14,119 bases of DNA from Anaerolineae bacterium (GTDB lineage: Bacteria; Chloroflexota; Anaerolineae; B4-G1): assembly GCA_016783285.1 (NCBI GenBank), contig JADHWW010000056.1, forward strand, positions 1 through 14,119, in the 5' to 3' direction. Positions within the stretch are counted from its first letter, which is position 1; every line of letters begins with the position of its first letter. The translations under genes and the position numbers were made by a program. Below, in pieces: positions 2,697 through 14,065 of this stretch. Under the pieces are notes generated by a model. That model ran no database searches. It saw only the letters and a program-made list of their open reading frames with translations, and had not been told where the DNA came from.

Positions 2697-4205
2697 CTAC
2701 AGCCGCCGCGCCAGCGCCAACGCCTCCTCCCGCGTATTGATCTCCCCGGCCGCCTGGGCCTCCCGCAGTGTTTCCAGCAGCCGCCCAATCTCCGGCCCTT
2801 CCGCCAGATGCAGTTCGGCCATCAGGTCGTGGCCCGTGACCAGCGGAGGCGGGGCCACCGTCTCCAGGTACCGCTCGAAGTAGTGGGTCAGCAACGTCTC
2901 CGCCACCTCCAGCCGTCGCCCCCAGTAGGGCTCCTGGAGATTCGGGCCACAGGTCGCCAGGTAATCGGCCAGGCTTAGCAGCACCACCTCGATGCCAGCG
3001 TCGCCTGTGGCGCGGAAGTAGCGATAGACGGCGCGGCGGGTGACCCGTTCGGCGCGGGCCAGGTGAGCCGGGCGCAGGTGTCCTCTGACCATGGCGCGCA
3101 CTCGCGCCACCTCGTCGTGGCCAAAACGCAGCGCCCGCAGCCGCGCTGCCGCCATTCGTGCTCCCACCGGTTCGTGATTGTAGAAATGGATATGGCCGTC
3201 TTCGCCCTGTGACCAGGTCTCGGGCTTGCCAACGTCGTGCAGTAGCGCCGCCAGTTTGAGCAGCAGCGCCCGGTCGCGCCCACCGCTGATCTCGACCGCC
3301 AGGTGTGCGCTCACGTCGCTGGCGAACTGGCCCAACACCCGTGTCAGGTCGCCCCAGACGGCGGGAGGCCCGTCCGCCAGAGTGCATGGCCCGATCTTGT
3401 GTCCCGTGACGGCAGCGACGACTCCCTCCAGCGCGTCCACCATCAATAGCGTGTGCTGCCACACGTCGAAGCGGTGCGGCGACGACTGGGTGACGCCCTT
3501 GAGCAGTTCCAGTTCCGGCACTACGTGGGGCAGCAGGCCAAGTTCGTCGAGACGTTGCAGGTGAAGGGCTGCGTTTTGTGTCGCGAGCACACGCGCAAAC
3601 TCATCCCGCACTCGCTCTGCCGCCGGGAGGGTCAGCAGGGGCGCGTCACGGCGAATCCAGTCTGCCGTCTGCGGCTCGATCTCGAAGCCCAGTTCGGCCT
3701 CTATCCGCGCGGCGCGCAGCAGTCGCACCGGGTCATCCCGGAAAGCCCACTCGCTCGTCGCGCGGATGTGCCTGGCCTCCAGGTCGGCCTGGCCGCCCGT
3801 CGGGTCCACCAGCACGCCCGCCTCGTCCAGCGCCAGCGCGTTGATGGTGAAGTCACGCGCGAGCAGGTCGGCCTCCAGGTCAGCGCCCCGCAGGGCCGCG
3901 AAGTCCAGTTCCAGCCCGGCGCCGTCCGCAGCCGTCAGCACGACCCGGCCGGCATCCCGCTCCACGTCCAGTGGGAAGTAGGCCCCGCCCAGTGTATTGG
4001 CCACGGCCCGCGCCAGGCCCATCGCGTCCTGGTTCACGGCGAAGTCCCAGTCGTGTACAGACCGGTCCAGCAGCGCGTCCCGCACCGCGCCCCCCACCGG
4101 CCACACCCGCGCCCCGCGCTCCCCGGCCAACCGGCGCACGACCTGCCAGGGCCAGTCAGGCAGGCGTATCTTTGTTTTCGTTGTCATCTTTGTCATCTTT
4201 GTCAT
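2697..4205 (-). CDS. cca: CCA tRNA nucleotidyltransferase / poly(A) polymerase-family protein with HD domain
   Basis: This 502-residue class II nucleotidyltransferase repairs or adds the 3' CCA (or A) of tRNAs in the cytoplasm. The head domain shows GGAVRD at 38-43, the metal-binding DWD at 52-54 and a third acidic residue D101 (LELDFAALR). Next come RDFTINALALD at 117-127 and the template-reading helix DDPVRLLRAAR at 157-167. An HD phosphohydrolase domain follows, with H251 (WQHTLLMVDAL), LLHDVGKPET at 321-330 and NHEPVGA near 343. The tail (LVTGHDLMAEL, then TREEALAL) is family-typical. The start at 4205 is supported by GGAGGTG at 4210-4216, with four bases between it and the ATG, inside the 3' end of the upstream small gene. 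Starts at 4196 and 4187 are possible within the repeat. The MTKMTKMTTKTK N-terminus is encoded by a tandem repeat and is probably dispensable. Whether it adds CCA or only A cannot be decided; the nearby tRNA already encodes its CCA. Confidence 0.9.
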   Translation of the reverse strand: MTKMTKMTTKTKIRLPDWPWQVVRRLAGERGARVWPVGGAVRDALLDRSVHDWDFAVNQDAMGLARAVANTLGGAYFPLDVERDAGRVVLTAADGAGLELDFAALRGADLEADLLARDFTINALALDEAGVLVDPTGGQADLEARHIRATSEWAFRDDPVRLLRAARIEAELGFEIEPQTADWIRRDAPLLTLPAAERVRDEFARVLATQNAALHLQRLDELGLLPHVVPELELLKGVTQSSPHRFDVWQHTLLMVDALEGVVAAVTGHKIGPCTLADGPPAVWGDLTRVLGQFASDVSAHLAVEISGGRDRALLLKLAALLHDVGKPETWSQGEDGHIHFYNHEPVGARMAAARLRALRFGHDEVARVRAMVRGHLRPAHLARAERVTRRAVYRYFRATGDAGIEVVLLSLADYLATCGPNLQEPYWGRRLEVAETLLTHYFERYLETVAPPPLVTGHDLMAELHLAEGPEIGRLLETLREAQAAGEINTREEALALARRL

Positions 4206-4677: not shown

Positions 4678-5451
4678 ATGAGCGAGAAGAAATACTACAT
4701 CAAATCCCTGGGCCGAGGCCTGCAAATACTGGAAGTTTTCTCCGCGGCTTCGCCCAGCCTGAGTCTGACTGAGATTGCCTCGATTGTCAATCTCGACAAA
4801 AGCACGGCATTCCGTTTCGTCTATACCCTGGAGAAGTTGGGTTACCTGGAGCGAGATCCAGAGACGAAACGGTATCGTCCGGGTTTGAGAGTGCTGCGGT
4901 TGGGCTTCGCCGTGCTCAACAGCCTGGAAGTGGCTCAGATCGCTCAGCCCTACTTGAAAGCCCTGTCTGCTGAGTGTGGCGAGACGACGAACATGACAGT
5001 TCGTGATGGCCAGGAAATCGTCTACGTCGCGCGGAATAAGACCAGCCAGATCATCAGCGTCAATTTGCAGCCAGGGTCCCGCCTGCCTGTCTACTGCACC
5101 TCAATGGGCAAAGCCCAACTGATAGACCTTCCCCGACGAGAACTCTACGATTTACTGGGCACAGGGCCATACCCCAGGGTGGGGCCGAACACCATCACCA
5201 CTCTCAATGGTCTGGTAGCCGAACTCGATAAGGTACGTCAACAAGGATACGCCATCAACGACGAAGAACTAACAGCGGGATTACGCTCGGTGGCAGCCCC
5301 CATCCGAAACCACAATAGTGAAATCGTGGCCGCCGTCAATATTTCTATCCCCAGTGCCCGCGTATTGCGCCAGGAGGTGGAGGATGTCCTGGCTCATCAG
5401 GTGATGAACACCGCCCACGAGATTTCCCTGGCGCTGGGCGCCGGTGTTTGA
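4678..5451 (+). CDS. IclR-family transcriptional regulator
   Basis: This 257-residue protein has an N-terminal winged helix-turn-helix at about residues 8-75, with typical text SLGRGLQILEVFS and LTEIASIVNLDKSTAFRFVYTLEKLGYL. A C-terminal IclR effector-binding domain spans about 80-255 (QPYLKALSAECGETTNMTV, then the late GLRSVAAPI and VNISIPSAR). The ATG at 4678 agrees with the family's usual N-terminus (YYIKSLGRGL). There is no in-frame alternative start back to the stop at 4609. No Shine-Dalgarno precedes it, which is odd given the perfect promoter. It lies 146 bases upstream of the transporter operon in the same direction and probably senses the transported compound or a breakdown product. 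The effector is unknown. Confidence 0.93.
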   Translation: MSEKKYYIKSLGRGLQILEVFSAASPSLSLTEIASIVNLDKSTAFRFVYTLEKLGYLERDPETKRYRPGLRVLRLGFAVLNSLEVAQIAQPYLKALSAECGETTNMTVRDGQEIVYVARNKTSQIISVNLQPGSRLPVYCTSMGKAQLIDLPRRELYDLLGTGPYPRVGPNTITTLNGLVAELDKVRQQGYAINDEELTAGLRSVAAPIRNHNSEIVAAVNISIPSARVLRQEVEDVLAHQVMNTAHEISLALGAGV

Positions 5452-5597: not shown

Positions 5598-7934
5598 ATG
5601 CACAGGCAATGGATGATGCCTACGTTAGTACTGGTGTTGGTGCTGTCTACACTGGTCGGGCTGGTCGCCTGCGGAGGCCAGCCAACCGCAGCGCCAGAGG
5701 AGGCACCAGAGGAGTCCATAGAGGCCGAACTGGAGCCCATCAAGGTGGGATGGTTTGGCGCGCTCACGGGCGACTGGGCGCTCTGGGGAGAGGCCAGCAG
5801 GAACGGCACCCAGTTCACGATAGATATGGTTAACGAGGCCGGCGGCGTTCTGGGCGGCCGGCAGCTCGAATTGATCGCCTACGACAACAAGAGCGACCAG
5901 TTAGAGTCGGTCAACGTGGTGCGACGCCTGATCACGGAGGACGGGGTGGTGGCCGTCATCGGCACCAACAGCAGTGGGTCGAACATCGCTGTTGCGCCCA
6001 TCGCCGAAGAGAACAAAGTGCCCGTTATCGCCACCTACGCCACCAACCCCCGTGTCACTCAGCCCGAAGAAGGGGTGTTGATGGAATACACCTATCGCGT
6101 CTGCTTCACCGATCCCTATCAGGGTTCAGTGATGGCCGACTTTGCCTTCAGCGACCTGGGCGCCCGCAAGGCAGCCATACTCTACGAGATCAGCTCCGAC
6201 TACTCCGTCGGCTTGCGCGACTTTTTCGTGCAGCGCTGGGAAGCGTTAGGCGGCGAGCTGGTCGCCGACGAGGCCTTTAAGACCGGCGACGTCGAGTTCC
6301 GCGCACAGCTTACGTCCATCAAGGATGCCGATCCTGACGTGATCATCATGCCCTTCCTGGCCAAAGAGGTCGCCCTGGCGGCCAAGCAGGCCCGCGACCT
6401 GGGCATCACCGTGCCCTTCATCGGCGGCGACGGCTGGCCCTCGCCCACTTTGTTGGAGATGGCGGCTTCTGCGGTGGAAGGCTGCTACTTTGTGGATCAC
6501 ACGAACGTGAACGCCGAGAACGTGCAGGATTACCGCGCAGCGTACGAGGCGGAGTATGGTAAGGACATCCAGGTCAATGCCATCATGACGCACGACGCCG
6601 TGATGGTACTCGTGGCCGCCATCGAAAAGGCCGGCTCGGCCGACCCCGTGGCGATTCGCGACGCTTTGGAACAAATAGACCCGGTGGAAGGCTTCACCGG
6701 CAACATCACCATAGATCCAGAGACACACAATCCCCTCGGTAAATCGGCCGTCATCATGACGATCAAAGACGGCGCGTTCGAGTACTACAAGGTGTTCGAG
6801 CCTATGGGAGAGGTCGAGGCGCCAGAGGAGCCGGAGGAACCGGCGGCCGAACTGGAGCCTATCAAGGTGGGATGGTTTGGCGCGCTCACGGGCGACTGGG
6901 CCCTGTGGGGAGAGGCCAGCAGGAACGGCACTCTGTTCACGATGGAGATGATCAACGAGGCCGGCGGCCTTTTGGGCGGCCGGCAGTTCGAGTTGATCGC
7001 CTACGACAACAAGAGCGACCAGTTAGAGTCGGTCAACGTGGTGCGGCGACTGATCACGGAGGACGAGGTAGTGGCCGTCATCGGCACCAACAGCAGCGGC
7101 TCCAATATCGCCGTCGCCCCCATCGCCGAAGAGAACAAAGTGCCCGTTATCGCCACCTACGCCACCAACCCGCGCGTCACTCAGCCTGAAGAAGGGGTGT
7201 TGATGGAGTACACGTTCCGCGTCTGCTTCACCGACCCCTACCAGGGCTCCGTGATCGCCGATTTTGCTTACGGCGACCTGGAAGCCCGCAAAGCGGCCAT
7301 ACTCTACGAGATCAGCTCCGACTATTCCGTTGGCCTGCGCGATTACTTTGTGCAGCAATGGGAGGCGCTGGGCGGCGAGTTGGTTGCCGACGAGGCCTTC
7401 AAGACCGGCGACGTCGAGTTCCGCGCGCAACTCACTTCCATCAAAGATGCCGAGCCTGACGTGATCGTCATGCCCTTCCTGGCCAAAGAGGTCGCCCTGG
7501 CGGCCAAGCAGGCCCGCGACCTGGGCATCACGGTGCCCTTCATCGGCGGCGACGGCTGGCCCTCGCCCACTTTGTTGGAGATGGCCGCTTCCGCAGTGGA
7601 AGGCTGCTACTTTGTGGACCACACGAACGTGAACGCCGAGAACGTGCAGGATTACCGCGCCGATTACGAGGAACGGTTTGGCTCGGACATCCAGGTCAAT
7701 GCCATCATGACGCACGACGCCGTGCTGGTGCTGGCGGCCGCCATCGAAAAGGCCGGCTCGACCGACCCCGCAGCGATCCGCGACGCTCTGGAGCAAATAG
7801 ACCCGGTGGAGGGTTTTACCGGCAACATCACCATTGATCCGGAGACGCACAACCCCGTCGGCAAATCGGCCGTCATCATGACGATCAAAGACGGCGAGTT
7901 CGAGTTCTACACAGTAGTTGAGCCGATGAAATAG
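5598..7934 (+). CDS. Tandem-domain branched-chain-amino-acid-type ABC substrate-binding lipoprotein
   Basis: This 778-residue extracytoplasmic binding protein of the LivK/Peripla_BP_6 class contains two complete domains. The N-terminus is a lipoprotein signal (MHRQWMM, a hydrophobic stretch, lipobox LVAC with C25), followed by an acidic linker. Domain 1 spans residues 44-403 and domain 2 residues 418-777. They align without gaps over 360 residues with 30 differences by hand count (about 92% identity). Most differences are conservative (V/I, D/E, F/Y, M/L). Likely ligand-pocket segments are unchanged in both: YDNKSDQLESVN, IGTNSSGSN, ATYATNP, DPYQGSV, YEISSDYSVGLRD, GGDGWPSP. Domain 2 has no signal of its own and is tethered through linker 404-417, which resembles the post-lipobox linker. 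Relatives are about 380-420 residues with one domain. The start has AGGAG at 5586-5590, seven bases upstream. The ligand is not identifiable from sequence; this class binds branched-chain amino acids but also many amides, ureas and aromatic acids. Confidence 0.95.
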   Translation: MHRQWMMPTLVLVLVLSTLVGLVACGGQPTAAPEEAPEESIEAELEPIKVGWFGALTGDWALWGEASRNGTQFTIDMVNEAGGVLGGRQLELIAYDNKSDQLESVNVVRRLITEDGVVAVIGTNSSGSNIAVAPIAEENKVPVIATYATNPRVTQPEEGVLMEYTYRVCFTDPYQGSVMADFAFSDLGARKAAILYEISSDYSVGLRDFFVQRWEALGGELVADEAFKTGDVEFRAQLTSIKDADPDVIIMPFLAKEVALAAKQARDLGITVPFIGGDGWPSPTLLEMAASAVEGCYFVDHTNVNAENVQDYRAAYEAEYGKDIQVNAIMTHDAVMVLVAAIEKAGSADPVAIRDALEQIDPVEGFTGNITIDPETHNPLGKSAVIMTIKDGAFEYYKVFEPMGEVEAPEEPEEPAAELEPIKVGWFGALTGDWALWGEASRNGTLFTMEMINEAGGLLGGRQFELIAYDNKSDQLESVNVVRRLITEDEVVAVIGTNSSGSNIAVAPIAEENKVPVIATYATNPRVTQPEEGVLMEYTFRVCFTDPYQGSVIADFAYGDLEARKAAILYEISSDYSVGLRDYFVQQWEALGGELVADEAFKTGDVEFRAQLTSIKDAEPDVIVMPFLAKEVALAAKQARDLGITVPFIGGDGWPSPTLLEMAASAVEGCYFVDHTNVNAENVQDYRADYEERFGSDIQVNAIMTHDAVLVLAAAIEKAGSTDPAAIRDALEQIDPVEGFTGNITIDPETHNPVGKSAVIMTIKDGEFEFYTVVEPMK
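5691..7928 (+). repeat. Two-copy direct repeat of about 1.1 kb inside one gene
   Basis: Copy 1 starts at 5691 and copy 2 at 6819, both with GCGCCAGAGG in the linker. The aligned domains are 5727-6806 and 6849-7928, offset 1122 bases. The copies are mosaic. Positions 6346-6463 match 7468-7585 with one mismatch in 118 bases, whereas the segment around 5973-6006 differs from its partner at many synonymous sites. The junction keeps the frame, and the duplicated unit includes the acidic linker. Confidence 0.95.
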
Positions 7935-8033: not shown

Positions 8034-8912
8034 ATGAGCACAGTCTTGCAGCAAGTGATCAACGGTATCTCTATCGGCAGCGTGTACGCGCTGATCGCTG
8101 TGGGCTATTCGTTGGTCTATAGCATTTTGAAATTCTCGAACTTTGCTCACGGCGGTGTGCTGATGCTGGGTTCGTACTTTGGATTCTTTGCGCTGACCCT
8201 GTTTGGAATGCCGTTTTGGGCGGCCTTGCCCCTGGCGATAATTGGGGCCGGGCTGCTGGGCGTTCTCAATGAGCGTCTCGCTTACCGGCCAATCCGGATA
8301 CGCAATTCTCCGCTGCTGTACTTGATGATCTCGTCGCTGGGAGCCTCTATCTTTTTGGAAAACTTTACTATTGTCACCATTGGCCCCACATTTCGCACCT
8401 ACCCGGAGGTCTTTGCCATCTCCCCCTTTATGATAGGGGACTTGAGTATCGGGCGACTGGACATTATCATTTTCGTGATCGCAGCCATATCGGTGGCGTT
8501 GTTGACCTGGATCATCTACGGCACGCGGATGGGCAACGCCATTCGGGCCACATCGTACGATATGCGGATAGCCAGCTTGATGGGCATCAATCCCGATATG
8601 GTCGTAGCGTTTGTGTTCTTTTTGGCCGGCGCGTCGGCCGGGCTGGGAGGGGTGCTGTTTGGCATCAAGTATACCGTCTGGCCTCAGATGGGCATCCTGA
8701 CTCTCAAGGCCTTTATCGCCGCCGTGGTGGGCGGGCTGGGCAGTCTGCCAGGGGCCGTGTTGGGCGCGATGGTGCTGGGCGTGACCGAGACCTTTGCGGC
8801 GGCCTTCGTTTCCTCGGCTTTCCGCGATCTGTTCTCGTACGCGCTAATGATCATCATCATCATCGTCAGACCTGGCGGCTTGATGGGCACAGTTACCGGG
8901 GAAAAGGCGTAA
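8034..8912 (+). CDS. livH: Branched-chain-amino-acid-type ABC transporter permease LivH
   Basis: This 292-residue integral membrane permease has about eight hydrophobic segments and forms the translocation pore with LivM. Family hallmarks are the N-terminal INGISIGSVYALIAVGYSLVY, the NFAHGGVLMLG motif near 36-46, and the EAA-like cytoplasmic loop AVVGGLGSLPGAVLGA near 230-245 that contacts the ATPases. The C-terminal IIIIIVRPGGLMG is typical. The start has GGGAGG five bases upstream. It is the first of four tightly packed transporter genes and is separated from the binding protein by a 99-base gap with a strong hairpin. Confidence 0.95.
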   Translation: MSTVLQQVINGISIGSVYALIAVGYSLVYSILKFSNFAHGGVLMLGSYFGFFALTLFGMPFWAALPLAIIGAGLLGVLNERLAYRPIRIRNSPLLYLMISSLGASIFLENFTIVTIGPTFRTYPEVFAISPFMIGDLSIGRLDIIIFVIAAISVALLTWIIYGTRMGNAIRATSYDMRIASLMGINPDMVVAFVFFLAGASAGLGGVLFGIKYTVWPQMGILTLKAFIAAVVGGLGSLPGAVLGAMVLGVTETFAAAFVSSAFRDLFSYALMIIIIIVRPGGLMGTVTGEKA

Positions 8913-8924
8913 AGGAGACGCAAA

Positions 8925-9797
8925 ATGTCACAGTATTACGTTGGTATTCTCATCTTGATCTGTATCAACCTTATCGCGGTGTTGGGGCTGTCGCTGATGA
9001 CGGGGTTCACCGGATTGTTCAACTTTGGACAAGCCGGGTTCCTGGCCGTCGGCGCGTATACGGCCACCATTCTCACCACTCGGTACGCGGCGCCCTTTCC
9101 GCTCGCCTTGCTGGCCGGTATGTTGGTCTCTGCCCTGGCTAGTTTCTTGATCGGCTATCCCACCTTGCGGCTCAAGGGGGACTATTTCGCCATTGCCACC
9201 CTGGGCTTTGCAGAAGTCGTGCGTTTGCTGGTGGAGAACCTGGAAAAGCTCACCGGCGGCTCCCGTGGCATCCCGCGCATCACCACCTACACCACTCTCC
9301 CCGTGACCCTGGGCATGACAGTTGTTGCTTTGTGGTTGATGGCTAACTATGTCCGTTCGCGTCACGGACGCAATTGCGTGGCCGTCCGCGAGGATGAGTT
9401 GGCCGCCGAATCTATCGGCATTAACTCTTTTCGCTACAAGCAGATTTCTTTCGCCATCAACGCTGCATTGGCCGGGCTGTCGGGCGGGCTGCTGGCCCAT
9501 TACGTCGGCTTTATTCAGCCCTCGATGTTCGGCATGATCAAATCCACCGAGTTGATCGTGATGGTCATCTTTGGTGGAATGCACAGCATTACGGGCGCGG
9601 TCTTTGCGGCCGTCGCGCTCACTTCGTTGCCGGAACTGCTGCGGGCGGCGCAGGCGTGGCGACTGGTCGCCTACGGCGTCCTGGTCGTGGTGATCATGGT
9701 TGTCCGCCCCGAGGGATTGATGGGCTCGTGGGAGCTCACCCCAGCCAATGTCAAAGCTCTATTCAACAAGCCGCGCCCGGCGCAAAAGGAGGGATAA
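8925..9797 (+). CDS. livM: Branched-chain-amino-acid-type ABC transporter permease LivM
   Basis: This is the second permease subunit, 290 residues. The family motif GLFNFGQAGFLAVGAYTA lies at about 30-47, followed by PTLRLKGDYFAIATLGFAEVVRLL and GGSRGIPRI. The ATPase-contact loop is VIFGGMHSITGAVFAA, and the C-terminus contains VRPEGLMG. At 290 residues it is the short form, without the longer N-terminus of the E. coli protein. AAAGGAG at 8911-8917, overlapping the livH stop, serves the ATG at 8925 with seven bases between. The gap to livH is 12 bases. Confidence 0.95.
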   Translation: MSQYYVGILILICINLIAVLGLSLMTGFTGLFNFGQAGFLAVGAYTATILTTRYAAPFPLALLAGMLVSALASFLIGYPTLRLKGDYFAIATLGFAEVVRLLVENLEKLTGGSRGIPRITTYTTLPVTLGMTVVALWLMANYVRSRHGRNCVAVREDELAAESIGINSFRYKQISFAINAALAGLSGGLLAHYVGFIQPSMFGMIKSTELIVMVIFGGMHSITGAVFAAVALTSLPELLRAAQAWRLVAYGVLVVVIMVVRPEGLMGSWELTPANVKALFNKPRPAQKEG

Positions 9798-9803
9798 GCC
9801 ACC

Positions 9804-10571
9804 ATGTCTCTGTTAGAAATTCAAAATCTCACCAAGAACTTTGGCGGCGTGCGGGCGGTAGATGACTTTTCCCACCGGTTGGAAACGGGGGGATTGTATG
9901 CCATCATCGGGCCTAACGGCGCGGGAAAGACCACCATCTTTAACCTCATCACCGGCATCTACGAGCCGACGAAGGGGCGCATCTCCTTCGACGGCGACGA
10001 GATCACCGGATTGAGAACCCACCAAATCGCCGGAAAAGGCATCGCCCGCACTTTTCAAAACATCCGCCTTTTCTCCGATTTTAGCGTGCTGGACAACGTG
10101 CGCACGGCCTGCCATCGTTATGCAAGCTATTCTATCTGGGAAGGGCTGCTCCCTACGCCGCGTCGCCGGCGTGAGGAAAAAGACCTGGCCGAGCGTTCCT
10201 GGCGTCTGCTAAAGCTGGTGAACCTCGACGACCGCGCCCAGGAGCTATCCAAGAACCTGCCCTACGGACACCAGCGGCGGTTAGAGATCGCCCGCGCTCT
10301 GGCCCAGGAACCCAAGATGTTACTGCTGGACGAGCCGGCGGCCGGCATGAACCCCGACGAGACGGTGCAGTTGATGGAGTTCATCGAGCAGATTCACGAG
10401 ACTTTTGATCTGACTATCCTGCTCATTGAGCACCACATGGAAGTGGTGATGGGTCTGGCCGACGACATCGTGGTGATCGACTTTGGCCGCACCATCGCCC
10501 AGGGCACGCCGGAGGAAGTGCAGTCCAACCCGGTGGTGATCAAGGCCTACCTGGGAACAGAGGAGGGATAA
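9804..10571 (+). CDS. livG: Branched-chain-amino-acid-type ABC transporter ATPase LivG
   Basis: This 255-residue cytoplasmic ATPase has Walker A GPNGAGKTT at 36-44, Q-loop text ARTFQNIRLF, Walker B MLLLDEPAAG, and the switch histidine in LLIEHHMEVV. The signature motif reads LPYGHQRRLEIARAL; the usual family form is LSYGxQ, so Ser is replaced by Pro here. The length and the C-terminal GTPEEVQSNPVVIKAYLG are LivG-typical. AAGGAGGG at 9786-9793 overlaps the livM stop, and six bases separate the two genes. It should pair with LivF as a heterodimer under LivHM. Confidence 0.95.
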   Translation: MSLLEIQNLTKNFGGVRAVDDFSHRLETGGLYAIIGPNGAGKTTIFNLITGIYEPTKGRISFDGDEITGLRTHQIAGKGIARTFQNIRLFSDFSVLDNVRTACHRYASYSIWEGLLPTPRRRREEKDLAERSWRLLKLVNLDDRAQELSKNLPYGHQRRLEIARALAQEPKMLLLDEPAAGMNPDETVQLMEFIEQIHETFDLTILLIEHHMEVVMGLADDIVVIDFGRTIAQGTPEEVQSNPVVIKAYLGTEEG

Positions 10572-10574
10572 GTT

Positions 10575-11291
10575 ATGGCGCTGCTAGAGATCAAAGATAT
10601 CTACGTCGCTTATGGCGGCATTCAGGCATTGCAGGGCGTCTCGCTCCACGTGGACGAGGGGGAGATCGTGACCATCATCGGCGCCAACGGGGCCGGCAAG
10701 TCCTCTTTGTTGAACGCCATCTCGGCGATGGTCCCGTACCATCGGGGCGAGGTCGTCTACCAGGGTCAGTGCCTGCCGGACAAACCACACCAGGTTGTCG
10801 CCCAGGGCATCATCCAGGTGCCCGAGGGGCGGCAGGTTTTCGCCAATCTCAACGTGGAGGATAACCTGCGCATAGGCGCATTTTTGCGCCGGGACAATGC
10901 CGGCATTGAGTCCGACCTTGAACAAGTCTACACACGCTTCCCGCGCCTCAAGGAGCGCCGGCAACAATACGCCGGCAGCCTGAGCGGCGGCGAGCAGCAG
11001 ATGTTGGTCATGGGACGAGGCATGATGGCGCGGCCCGGCGTGTTGCTGCTGGACGAGCCGTCGCTGGGTCTGGCCCCCATGTTGGTGGCGGAGGTTTTCA
11101 GCATTATCCGCGACATCAATGCCGAAGGAACCACCTTGCTGCTAGTAGAGCAGAACGCCCGCAAGGCGCTGGCTGTAGCCGACCGGGCTTATGTTTTGGA
11201 GACGGGCAAGATCATCCGTGAGGGTGTTGGGACGGCCTTGCTCGAAGACCCGTCGGTCCAGGAGGCATACCTGGGCATTAAGCGTGAATAG
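10575..11291 (+). CDS. livF: Branched-chain-amino-acid-type ABC transporter ATPase LivF
   Basis: This 238-residue ATPase has Walker A GANGAGKSS at 36-44, the LivF hallmark QVPEGRQVFANLNVEDNL, signature LSGGEQQMLVMGRGMM, Walker B VLLLDEPSLGLAP, and LLLVEQN in the switch region, where LivF proteins characteristically carry Gln rather than His. AGGAGGG at 10561-10567 lies seven bases before the ATG and overlaps the end of livG, which stops three bases earlier. The racemase-family gene starts three bases after its stop, which ties the transporter to that enzyme. Confidence 0.95.
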   Translation: MALLEIKDIYVAYGGIQALQGVSLHVDEGEIVTIIGANGAGKSSLLNAISAMVPYHRGEVVYQGQCLPDKPHQVVAQGIIQVPEGRQVFANLNVEDNLRIGAFLRRDNAGIESDLEQVYTRFPRLKERRQQYAGSLSGGEQQMLVMGRGMMARPGVLLLDEPSLGLAPMLVAEVFSIIRDINAEGTTLLLVEQNARKALAVADRAYVLETGKIIREGVGTALLEDPSVQEAYLGIKRE

Positions 11292-11294
11292 CGC

Positions 11295-11316
11295 ATGGGC
11301 GAATGGCGAATGGCGA
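11295..11316 (+). repeat. Heptamer tandem repeat on the racemase start codon
   Basis: ATGGGCGA, ATGGCGA and ATGGCGA follow one another (11295-11316), with a degenerate ATATCGC after. The first and third ATG (11295, 11310) are in the racemase frame; the one at 11303 is not. The repeat supplies the first residues (MGEWRM) and leaves no Shine-Dalgarno, so the true start is ambiguous. Confidence 0.75.
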
Positions 11317-12365
11317 ATATCGCACAACAACTGCTGGAGCAATTTCCTGATCGGCTCGTTACCATAGACTCCCACACCGCCGGCGAGCCGACGCGCTTGA
11401 TCGTCGGCGGTGTCCCGCCCATCCCCGGCGAGACGATCGCCGATAAGCGACTGTACCTCATGCGCGAGTGGGATCACATCCGGCTGCAACTGACCAGCGA
11501 GCCGCGCGGCCACCGCGACATGATCGCCGCGCTGGTCACGGAGCCTACGACCGAGGGAGCGGATTTCGGGCTGATCTATATGGACGCCCGCCGCTACCCC
11601 TACCTGTGCGGCCATGCCACCATCGGCGCTGTTACCACACTCGTCGAGGCCGGGGCTGTGGAAGCCGTCGAGCCGGAGACTTTGGTGACGATAGACACCC
11701 CATCCGGCCCGGCCACGGCAGTCGCTCACGTGCAGGGGCAAAAGGTCGAGTCTGTGACCATCCGGCTGTCGCCCTCGTTCGTCTATGGCGAAAATCAACC
11801 CCTGAACGTGCCGGGGCTGGGACGCATCCAGGTGGACACCGTCTGCGTGGGCGGCTTTTTCGCCATGGTCTCGGCCGAGCAGATTGGCCTGGCGTTGAAG
11901 CCGGAGAACGCCGGACGGTTGATCGAACTGGGCATGGCCATCATCGAGTCTGCCAACGAGCAGTTGACCGTCTGCCACCCGGCCCGCCCTGAAGTGACCA
12001 CGGTGGACGTGACCGAATTCTACGATCTCTCCGGGCATCGGCAAGGACGAGGGCTGAGCGCGGTAATCTACGGCGAATCCCACATAGACCGCTCCCCGTG
12101 CGGCACCGGCACGTCCGCCAAGATGGCCTTGCTCCATCACCGGGGCCAACTGGCTCTCAACCAACCATACATCAACGCAGGCATCCTCGGTACCACTTTC
12201 GAGGGACGATTAGTAGCCGAGACGATGGTGGGCGATCCTTCTACAGGCTCAGGACAGGCTTTACCAGCCGTTGTGCCAGAGGTACGGGGAAGTGCTCATG
12301 TTACCGGCGTGCACCAGTTTGTCCTTGACCCAAGGGACCCGTTTCCTCGGGGGTTCCTATTGTGA
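11295..12365 (+). CDS. Proline racemase / 4-hydroxyproline epimerase-family protein
   Basis: This 356-residue member of the proline racemase family (PF05544) belongs to a group that inverts or dehydrates proline and hydroxyprolines by two-base chemistry. The core begins VTIDSHTAGEPTR at 22-34. The first catalytic cysteine is C105 in YLCGHATIG and the second is C269 in DRSPCGTGTSAK. Both cysteines are kept, which favours a racemase or 2-epimerase over trans-3-hydroxyproline dehydratase, where one cysteine is replaced by Thr. The late conserved text is interrupted: VGD (312-314) and PAVVPE (324-329) are normally almost adjacent but are separated here by PSTGSGQAL, encoded by an inserted repeat. 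The end, HQFVLDPRDPFPRGFLL, is intact. The start is 11295 or 11310; both lie in the heptamer repeat and neither has a Shine-Dalgarno, so it may be translated by coupling to livF three bases upstream. The substrate was not determined. Confidence 0.92.
   Translation: MGEWRMANIAQQLLEQFPDRLVTIDSHTAGEPTRLIVGGVPPIPGETIADKRLYLMREWDHIRLQLTSEPRGHRDMIAALVTEPTTEGADFGLIYMDARRYPYLCGHATIGAVTTLVEAGAVEAVEPETLVTIDTPSGPATAVAHVQGQKVESVTIRLSPSFVYGENQPLNVPGLGRIQVDTVCVGGFFAMVSAEQIGLALKPENAGRLIELGMAIIESANEQLTVCHPARPEVTTVDVTEFYDLSGHRQGRGLSAVIYGESHIDRSPCGTGTSAKMALLHHRGQLALNQPYINAGILGTTFEGRLVAETMVGDPSTGSGQALPAVVPEVRGSAHVTGVHQFVLDPRDPFPRGFLL
12234..12263 (+). repeat. Dispersed-type repeat inserted in frame in the racemase gene
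   Basis: The core CTACAGGCTCAGGACAGGC contains ACAGGC-TCAGG-ACAGGC. It resembles a short interspersed repeat (related form: TTCGACAGGCTCAGGACAGG) that I recall as frequent in Chloroflexi-type genomes and that often reads STGSGQA or similar in proteins. Here it adds about nine residues between two conserved motifs without breaking the frame. The family name is from memory, not from a search. Confidence 0.65.
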
Positions 12366-12451: not shown

Positions 12452-14065
12452 ATGAACGAACTATTTCTAGTCAACGGCAGTTTTCATACCCAGGACTCAG
12501 CCTACCCCCGCGCCACGGCCGTAGCCATCCGCGATGGCCGCGTATGGGCCGTGGGCGATGATGAGGAAATCCGCACCCTGGCCAGGCCTGATGCACAGAT
12601 GATTGACCTGGAAGGCCGCCTGGTGCTGCCCGGCCTGACCGATGCGCATTTCCACTACCACGATTGGGCGCTCGGTCGCCGCCGGCTGACTTTGGCCGAG
12701 GCAACCTCCCTCGCCGACGTGCGAGAGCGACTGGCCCAAATAGTAAATGAGACGCCTCCCGGTCACTGGGTGCTGGGCCAGGGCTGGAACGAGACCCGCT
12801 GGCCCGAACCGCGTCAGCCCCGCCGCGTCGACCTGGACGACGTGGCCCCTGACCGCCCCGTCATCCTGTGGCGCAACGACCTGCACCTGGCAGTGGTCAA
12901 CTCGCGGGCACTGCGGGAAGTGGGTATCACGGGAGATACCCCCGACCCGCCCGAAGGCATCATTGACCGGGACGAATCGGGACAGCCAACCGGCATCCTA
13001 CGCGACCTGGCTATCAACCTGGTGGTCGACGTCATCCCCCCGCCCACCGAGGAGGAGACGGTCGCGGCCATGCGTGACGGGTTCGCCATCCTCCACCGGC
13101 TGGGCCTGACCGGTGTCCACGACTACCGCATCATGGGCGGGGCCGATGGGCCGCCAGCGTTTCGTGCCTATCAACGTTTGCAGGCAGCGGGCGAACTGGC
13201 CCTGCGGATGTGGATGCACATCCCCGGCGAGCGATTGGACGAGGCCATCGCCCTGGGCCTGCGCACCGGTATGGGCGGCGACTATTTGCGCGTGGGGCAC
13301 GTCAAGCTATTTTCGGACGGCGGACAGGGCGCGCGCACCGCCTGGATGTTGGAACCTTACGAAGACACTGGCGATTGTGGTATGCCCCTCACCCCGATGA
13401 AAGAGATCGCCGAGGCGGTACGCAAGGCCGACCTGGCCGGGCTGGCCGTGGCGATCCACGCCATCGGCGACCGGGCCAACCGGGAACTGATCACTACCTT
13501 TGAACAAGTCCTGAACAGTGAGCGAGAATCCACCACCGCGCCACCTGTGGCTCCCCACCGCATCGAACACGTGCAGATGATCCGTCCCGACGACGTGATC
13601 CGGCTGGGGCAATTGGGCGTCGTGGCCTCAGTGCAACCCATCCACGCCCCTGATGATATCCCGATGATCGAAAAGTCGGTCGGCCCACGCGGGCGCTTCG
13701 CCTATCCCTTCCGTGATATGTTGGAGGCCGGGGTCACGCTGGCCTTTGGCTCCGACTGCCCCGTAGCGAACCCCAACCCGATGTTTGGCATCCACGCTGC
13801 CGTCACTCGCCAACAGCGAGACGACGAGCCACAGGGCGGCTGGTACCCCCGGCAGCGGTTGACCGTGGCCGAGGCGGTGTGGGGCTACACTATGGGCACG
13901 GCTCTGGTCGCTGGTCGGGAGGCGGAGTTGGGCAGCATCACCCCCGGCAAGCTGGCCGACCTGATCGTCCTCGACCGTGACATTTTCGCTGTCGAACCGA
14001 TGGATATCGCTCAGGCGCAGGTAGTGATGACCATTTTCGATGGGCAAGTGGTACATAGCAATTAG
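12452..14065 (+). CDS. YtcJ-type metal-dependent amidohydrolase
   Basis: This 537-residue protein belongs to the amidohydrolase superfamily, YtcJ/COG1574 group (N-substituted formamide deformylase-like), which hydrolyses amide or related C-N bonds in a TIM-barrel metal site. The N-terminal beta-sandwich (FLVNGSFHTQD, IRDGRVWAVG) leads into the metal motif DAHFH (H66, H68) at 64-68. Next come GQGWNETRW at 109-117, VKLFSDGG near 284-291, AIHAIGDRANR with H336, RIEHVQM with H373, SVQPIHAPDD, and FGSDCPV with the catalytic Asp D435. C-terminal text GSITPGKLADLIVLDRD is typical. The ATG at 12452 has AGAGG at 12443-12447. Length matches the family (about 530-560). It lies 86 bases after the racemase gene, same strand, probably in the same operon. 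Its substrate could be the imported compound or an amide derivative; the sequence alone does not say. Confidence 0.92.
   Translation: MNELFLVNGSFHTQDSAYPRATAVAIRDGRVWAVGDDEEIRTLARPDAQMIDLEGRLVLPGLTDAHFHYHDWALGRRRLTLAEATSLADVRERLAQIVNETPPGHWVLGQGWNETRWPEPRQPRRVDLDDVAPDRPVILWRNDLHLAVVNSRALREVGITGDTPDPPEGIIDRDESGQPTGILRDLAINLVVDVIPPPTEEETVAAMRDGFAILHRLGLTGVHDYRIMGGADGPPAFRAYQRLQAAGELALRMWMHIPGERLDEAIALGLRTGMGGDYLRVGHVKLFSDGGQGARTAWMLEPYEDTGDCGMPLTPMKEIAEAVRKADLAGLAVAIHAIGDRANRELITTFEQVLNSERESTTAPPVAPHRIEHVQMIRPDDVIRLGQLGVVASVQPIHAPDDIPMIEKSVGPRGRFAYPFRDMLEAGVTLAFGSDCPVANPNPMFGIHAAVTRQQRDDEPQGGWYPRQRLTVAEAVWGYTMGTALVAGREAELGSITPGKLADLIVLDRDIFAVEPMDIAQAQVVMTIFDGQVVHSN

Follow-up and report, generated by a model that had tools for sequence, protein, structure and literature searches.

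The question raised by this locus is what a substrate-binding lipoprotein might gain from carrying two nearly identical LivK-type domains in one chain. The window—that is, the whole stretch of 14,119 nucleotides that was analysed, with a G+C content of 61.6%—contains at 5598..7934 on the plus strand one uninterrupted reading frame, which starts with ATG and encodes 778 amino acids. The Pfam family Peripla_BP_6 matches this protein in two stretches (411 bits; cut-off 31.7), the best of which covers positions 1-342 of the 343-position profile, and the family model was matched by both domains. The LivK subfamily model PRK15404 (NCBIfam) scored 238 bits, under its curated cut-off of 477. A single signal and the lipobox LVAC, with Cys25, are predicted by eye; Cys25 is invariant across 13 aligned tandem proteins and is followed by a 22-residue, acidic/proline-rich tether. 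The earlier note's description of one frame with one lipoprotein signal and two full Peripla_BP_6 domains is thus borne out. The parts are as follows, with one further residue after D2 before the chain ends:

5598..5738, plus strand: signal, lipobox Cys25, and acidic/proline-rich tether, residues 1-47 (sequence; invariance of Cys25)
5739..6806, plus strand: D1, first Peripla_BP_6 (LivK) domain, residues 48-403 (Pfam, HMM coordinates, AF2/Foldseek)
6807..6860, plus strand: inter-domain linker of 18 amino acids, residues 404-421 (pLDDT; DNA alignment with the tether)
6861..7928, plus strand: D2, second Peripla_BP_6 (LivK) domain, residues 422-777 (Pfam, HMM coordinates, comparison with D1)

Structure prediction gave two LivK folds on a flexible linker. 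The AF2 model, built from 16 aligned sequences (mean pLDDT 85.3, pTM 0.51), contains two complete domains of the type I periplasmic-binding fold, and its top Foldseek matches were one-domain LivK/LivJ structures (TMt 0.90 for 3td9 and 0.92 for 4gnr). The linker between the two folds is disordered in the model, with pLDDT below 50 at residues 405-418, and confidence is also low at 18-43. Because of this disordered linker and the pTM of 0.51, the arrangement of the heads relative to each other is not fixed by the model, as for beads on a string, and no confident head-head interface was found in it.

The gene neighborhood is that of a HAAT importer, with two BPD_transp_2 permeases and two Liv-type ABC ATPases encoded beside the two-head gene (Pfam):

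4678..5451, plus strand: IclR-family regulator, upstream and on the same strand (Pfam)
8034..8912, plus strand: LivH-type permease (BPD_transp_2; best NCBIfam model PRK10740 LivH, 191 bits, cut-off 379)
8925..9797, plus strand: LivM-type permease (BPD_transp_2; best NCBIfam model PRK11301 LivM, 193 bits, cut-off 366)
9804..10571, plus strand: LivG-type ATPase (ABC_tran, BCA_ABC_TP_C; best NCBIfam model PRK11300 LivG, 296 bits, cut-off 362)
10575..11291, plus strand: LivF-type ATPase (ABC_tran; best NCBIfam model PRK11614 LivF, 245 bits, cut-off 441)
11295..12365, plus strand: proline-racemase-family enzyme (Pro_racemase; best PDB match 7pb3 AsProR; PRK13969, 365 bits, cut-off 556)
12452..14065, plus strand: amidohydrolase, Amidohydro_3 (Pfam)

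Since the Liv models score best yet remain under their curated cut-offs, the four subunits are, by these profile scores, of the Liv type but not confirmed branched-chain amino-acid equivalogs. The amidohydrolase possibly belongs to the same transcription unit, and the IclR-family protein would be a candidate regulator of the operon. The ligand is probably an amino acid and, given the neighboring racemase family, possibly a proline-like one. A more exact ligand assignment by way of the racemase-family enzyme was attempted. The enzyme has both catalytic-type Cys residues in an alignment with AsProR and, counted by eye, Ile at TcPRAC position 102 and Val at 270; these positions separate proline racemase from hydroxyproline epimerase (PMC1964878). 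Neither signature fits: that of PRAC (Phe102, Cys/Leu270) is absent despite the Cys-Cys pair, and that of HyPRE is absent as well, with Ile found where Ser/Val is expected and Val where His is expected. The same gene contains at 12237-12253 a 17-base match, with one mismatch, to the repeat CCTTCGACARGCTCAGG (0 of 200 shuffles had such a match), located where the protein has an STGSGQA insertion relative to AsProR, and this match looks like an in-frame repetitive element within the gene. The repeat is common in other genomes. At the other end of the window, its edge cuts an MttB-family (trimethylamine or related) methyltransferase, of which the C-terminal part is present (20-1108; Pfam); a member of the AAT family (acyl-CoA:6-APA acyltransferase) comes next (1108-2178; Pfam). 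The minus strand carries a CCA tRNA nucleotidyltransferase-type gene (2697-4205) with a tRNA-Phe gene directly downstream of it (2535-2611).

With respect to known systems, each head is the same full domain as in LivK/LivJ of the HAAT family (type I fold; for example TM1135, 3td9, and pneumococcal LivJ, 4gnr, the top PDB matches in sequence as well as in fold), and the protein likewise has a lipobox (here by eye) and is encoded next to livHMGF-type genes; however, the ten best-matching PDB chains comprise 346-395 residues with one domain each, and the window protein has two. Two serial binding domains on flexible linkers are also present in GlnPQ of Lactococcus, although the SBDs of GlnP belong to a fold type other than LivK. 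The window protein has two SBDs per chain without fusion to a permease and without the GlnP-type fold: it is a separate lipoprotein, LivH and LivM being separate genes, with the LivK fold and heads that are 92% identical. The two permease subunits of OpuA each carry one fused SBD, whereas both binding domains of the window protein lie in one separate chain. The SBDs of GlnP are fused to the permease and unequal in ligand, the inter-SBD linker measures 14 amino acids, close to the 15-18 in the LivK tandems, and linker length affects transport by GlnPQ (PMC8025302). OpuA resembles the window protein in having more than one binding domain per translocator (PMC11065425). CdgH has two tandem periplasmic PBPb sensor domains in series, as here, but is a diguanylate cyclase, serving signalling and not transport, with domains of another class (PMC5431781). 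These systems also bear on a cooperative receptor, in which the heads would touch and bind or deliver ligand cooperatively. The SBDs of OpuA interact transiently, with apparent cooperativity of transport (PMC11065425), whereas the tandem domains of GlnPQ were found to bind independently, with no cooperativity in SBD1-2 (PMC8025302). Together with the disordered linker and the AF2 model lacking a confident interface—contact between the heads would still be possible—this makes cooperativity possible but unsupported here, and a cooperative receptor appears very improbable.

Detailed comparison of D1 and D2, which are offset by 1122 nt or 374 amino acids, showed that 30 of 356 residues are unequal (48-403 versus 422-777); a hand count of 30 differences between 44-403 and 418-777 was reproduced exactly by computation. 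At the DNA level, 108 of 1,068 nucleotides over the 356 aligned codons are unequal, the differences are distributed 16/17/76 over the three codon positions, and exact matches extend over 64 nt at most, with a mean of ~10 nt between differences. Three methods gave a dN of 0.036-0.042 and a dS of 0.38-0.59, with a dN/dS of 0.06-0.11. On this substitution pattern, both copies are subject to purifying selection, and the tandem is an old duplication, with a similarity far beyond chance, and neither a recent nor a collapsed repeat; a recent duplication is ruled out by the dS. No gene-conversion tract was found in the window copies (third positions agree over at most 25 consecutive codons, p 0.15). 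The 30 differences fall in helices (16), strands (9), and elsewhere (5) of the AF2 model, and none falls on the listed motif residues, which we take to be pocket positions as in LivK/LivJ. These residues—W63, S125/S126, A148-T149-N150, Y202, and D278 in D1, and their counterparts W437, S499/S500, A522-T523-N524, Y576, and D652 in D2—are invariant in the 13 aligned tandem proteins. The proposals that the putative pocket segments are conserved in both domains and that both copies look intact therefore hold up, the latter judged from low dN, high dS, and conservation of both. Furthermore, the linker DNA looks like the N-terminal tether in diverged form, by a local alignment from which the shared last 18 nt were excluded (3 of 500 shuffles reached its score), suggesting that the duplicated unit was probably tether plus domain. 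Linkers of 15-18 amino acids are present across the 13 tandem proteins.

A search with the full-length protein, in which 7,991 candidates were scored, gave 159 proteins at E ≤ 1e-10, and among the 120 of these that were listed, 13 are full tandems including the window protein, with 86-100% identity. The same layout spanning both domains is thus present in 12 other proteins, whose records come from ENA, JGI, and NCBI sources with contigs of up to 117,702 bases. Two of them, P0002 (1 residue different from the window protein) and P0003 (2 residues different), may come from the same species. Near-identical repeats, here of 1.1 kb, are a known source of error in metagenome contigs, and one relative, P0009 (348 identical amino acids on a 2,406-base contig), could be an assembly or cloning artefact; for the window, however, copies that differ every ~10 nt on average with no exact run beyond 64 nt, together with separate records in which diverged relatives show the two-domain arrangement, rule out an assembly artefact, and an artefactual origin of any kind is scarcely credible.

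No further tandem was found by a profile search with nine tandem proteins in the best 120 of 3,229 hits (7,997 candidates scored). A search with D1 alone returned, among the matches listed, complete single-domain relatives with 78-89% identity (P0121-P0130, P0014). The 120 matches listed for D1 included the following named Chloroflexi bacterium: P0124 (84% identity), P0131 (88%), P0133 (70%), and P0154 (62%); also listed were a Holophaga protein, P0182, at 64%, and proteins with Clostridium and Spirochaetales names at about 50%. The tandem gene itself probably belongs to a Chloroflexota bacterium. For the loci of close relatives, a contig search gave one distant locus (27% identity) and viral contigs gave none. 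In the phylum of L001 (Clostridia bacterium; not Chloroflexota), 121 of 149 genomes had a match at E ≤ 1e-40, and among the matches listed none shares an open frame with a second match, the longest frame being 571 amino acids. In a 21-genome sample, one match lies in a 958-amino-acid open frame, but the ORF from its first ATG is 471 amino acids, one domain long. Searching plasmids gave 1,331 records, of which 1,056 "cover" 80% of the query; in the 10 matches listed, both query halves align to one stretch of ~1.03-1.06 kb. Because both halves can match the same single domain, full query coverage in a translated search is no proof of a tandem, of which annotators should be warned. Among the papers listed from open-licence texts, where synonyms could be missed, none described a separate lipoprotein with two LivK domains. 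The earlier note's view of the layout as unusual agrees with these results: neither the homologue search nor the whole-genome search, each of limited scope, gave a sign that double LivK proteins are common, and the layout is uncommon in the collections searched. As a separate observation, Pfam assigned both Peripla_BP_6 and BPD_transp_2 to P0053, P0091, P0092, P0093, and P0097, which are possible LivK-permease fusions and would represent a GlnP-like solution in the Liv family.

Seven more two-domain proteins were identified from HMM coordinates among the 120 listed, namely P0015, P0016, P0017, P0019, P0021, P0024, and P0085, with two Peripla_BP_6-type domains per chain like the window protein. 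In P0017, the first domain is cut, and P0016 has at least 3 domains, the first of them partial: 63 residues of an extra domain, located at the N-terminus of the protein, are 83-90% identical to the two full ones. Unlike those of the window group, the domains of these proteins share 28-43% identity with the window heads, and they look like separate duplications. A domain tree, with several long branches and 18 hand-picked single-domain rows, placed P0085, P0015/P0016/P0017, and P0019/P0021/P0024 in groups of their own. With these three separate groups and the window group, the double layout appears to have arisen at least four times in this sample.

The history of the window group was followed in a domain tree of 50 rows, from which P0002 was left out since it has the same domains as P0001. 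The D2 domains form a clade (support 97/92) that also holds both domains of P0008, both of P0009, and the single-domain P0125 and P0132; the D1 domains fall in two groups outside this clade (83/91 and 84/48), not separated from single-domain relatives, and D1 and D2 of P0013 pair together on the D1 side. Every one of the 13 tandem proteins has Lys398 in D1 and Thr772 in D2 (K398/T772). Met at column 75 with Phe/Tyr at column 90 is found in 11 of 13 D2 domains, 1 of 13 D1 domains (P0009), and 0 of 11 single-domain relatives, the D2 domains of P0007 and P0010 lacking both. These counts and those for column 348 were repeated with all 13 tandem proteins; P0002 was excluded from the conversion-run, tether/linker, and first residue-mark analyses, and P0003 also from the latter two. 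Among the single-domain rows read by raw column, P0122 and P0130 are unreliable at 348-400, P0123 and P0130 end differently, and P0131 and P0132 are partial sequences. Identical D1/D2 stretches extend over 231 amino acids in P0008, 245 in P0013, and 348 in P0009; by permutation over variable sites with the observed number of differences, runs as long occurred in 0, 0, and 3 of 5,000 trials, respectively, and the other nine tandem proteins gave p values of 0.04-0.54.

The D2-marking residues, K398/T772 in 13 of 13, and the tree strongly indicate a single duplication in the ancestor, after which the copies were homogenised in some relatives. The identical stretches are best read as gene conversion. 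A separate recent duplication in each relative is less likely, since P0008 and P0013 retain D2-type residues outside the identical middle, at columns 75, 90, and 348, and K398/T772 holds in all 13 tandem proteins. For P0008 and P0013, an origin of the stretches in repeat assembly is possible, and the identity in P0009 may be such an effect. Against the simple account, D1 of P0008 joins the single-domain P0125 in the tree (86/84) and not its own D2, although a count gives more differences from P0125 (20 positions) than from its own D2 (14). The absence of two D2 marks from P0007 and P0010 likewise fits it imperfectly. In other lineages, the tandem has perhaps collapsed to a single domain, for example in P0125.

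This history admits a neutral or near-neutral duplication, in which unequal exchange creates the tandem, exchange between the copies homogenises or collapses it, and two heads confer no advantage, each copy being selected only because a misfolded head is harmful. The single- and double-domain proteins side by side in one close group, the position of single-domain P0125 and P0132 (partial) inside the D2 clade, and the long identical tracts in P0008, P0009, and P0013 are consistent with such a process; P0125, with Ile/Leu at columns 75/90 and a D2-type C-terminus, resembles a D1-D2 collapse product, though an ancestor may match as well. The layout and common D1/D2 signature in 13 tandem proteins, and a dN/dS indicating that both copies were long retained while single copies are evidently viable, argue otherwise, and we consider the neutral account unlikely.

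Alternatively, the heads could have different jobs, with unequal affinity or ligand, or with one docking on LivHM and the other acting as a reservoir or sensor. The unequal ligands of SBD1 and SBD2 in GlnPQ are a precedent, and the fixed K398/T772, the D2-type end residues that persist around an identical middle in P0008 and P0013, and the faster divergence of D2 than D1 in one subgroup would fit. In five relatives, D2 diverges faster in 10 of 10 pairs, which are not independent, and in a second set its divergence is slightly above that of D1 in 3 of 3 pairs; D2 could thus be under weaker constraint. In view of the motif residues identical in both heads and the identical core in three relatives, a division of labor seems rather improbable.

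The reading that we favor, as the probable one, is a two-headed lipoprotein of a LivHMGF-type importer that offers more receptor per anchor, with largely independent heads. On this view, a HAAT (LivKHMGF-type) amino-acid importer would receive its substrate from this lipoprotein, whose gene underwent an in-frame duplication of domain and tether, so that one lipid anchor carries two flexibly strung binding heads. Each head would bind the amino acid, dock, and deliver in turn to a single LivHM permease. The gain would be that each anchor, and each secreted protein, brings more receptor close to the permease and that, once the first head has delivered, a second loaded head is already tethered nearby for fast re-delivery; receptor density and fast re-delivery are proposed as the likely gain by analogy with GlnPQ and OpuA. 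Several observations count against this reading of a two-headed receptor: the close single-domain relatives (P0121-P0130, P0014) indicate that such a protein can do with one head, the 30 differences may make D1 and D2 unequal in docking or affinity, D2 diverges faster in some relatives, and the branching on the D1 side of the tree is poorly separated.

Tandem binding domains for ABC import are of a known kind, and what is new here is the carrier, a separate type-I LivK lipoprotein with heads apparently kept alike. Tethering would be useful in Chloroflexota, which mostly have no outer membrane. The best-studied tandem compared here, GlnPQ, is permease-fused with heads unequal in specificity (PMC8025302); near-identical heads on a separate lipoprotein would make it possible to see how receptor number acts apart from specificity, and the one-head relatives with 78-89% identity offer a ready comparison. 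Tentatively, and at somewhat less than even odds, the window group may represent a lineage-specific multi-headed receptor strategy, probably of Chloroflexota, with near-identical LivK heads kept by conversion, position-specific ends, one anchor, and one permease—two heads per array here and at least 3 in an unrelated group. If true, nature would here offer a way to ask whether selection in ABC import can favor a larger number of receptors on its own, with specificity unchanged.
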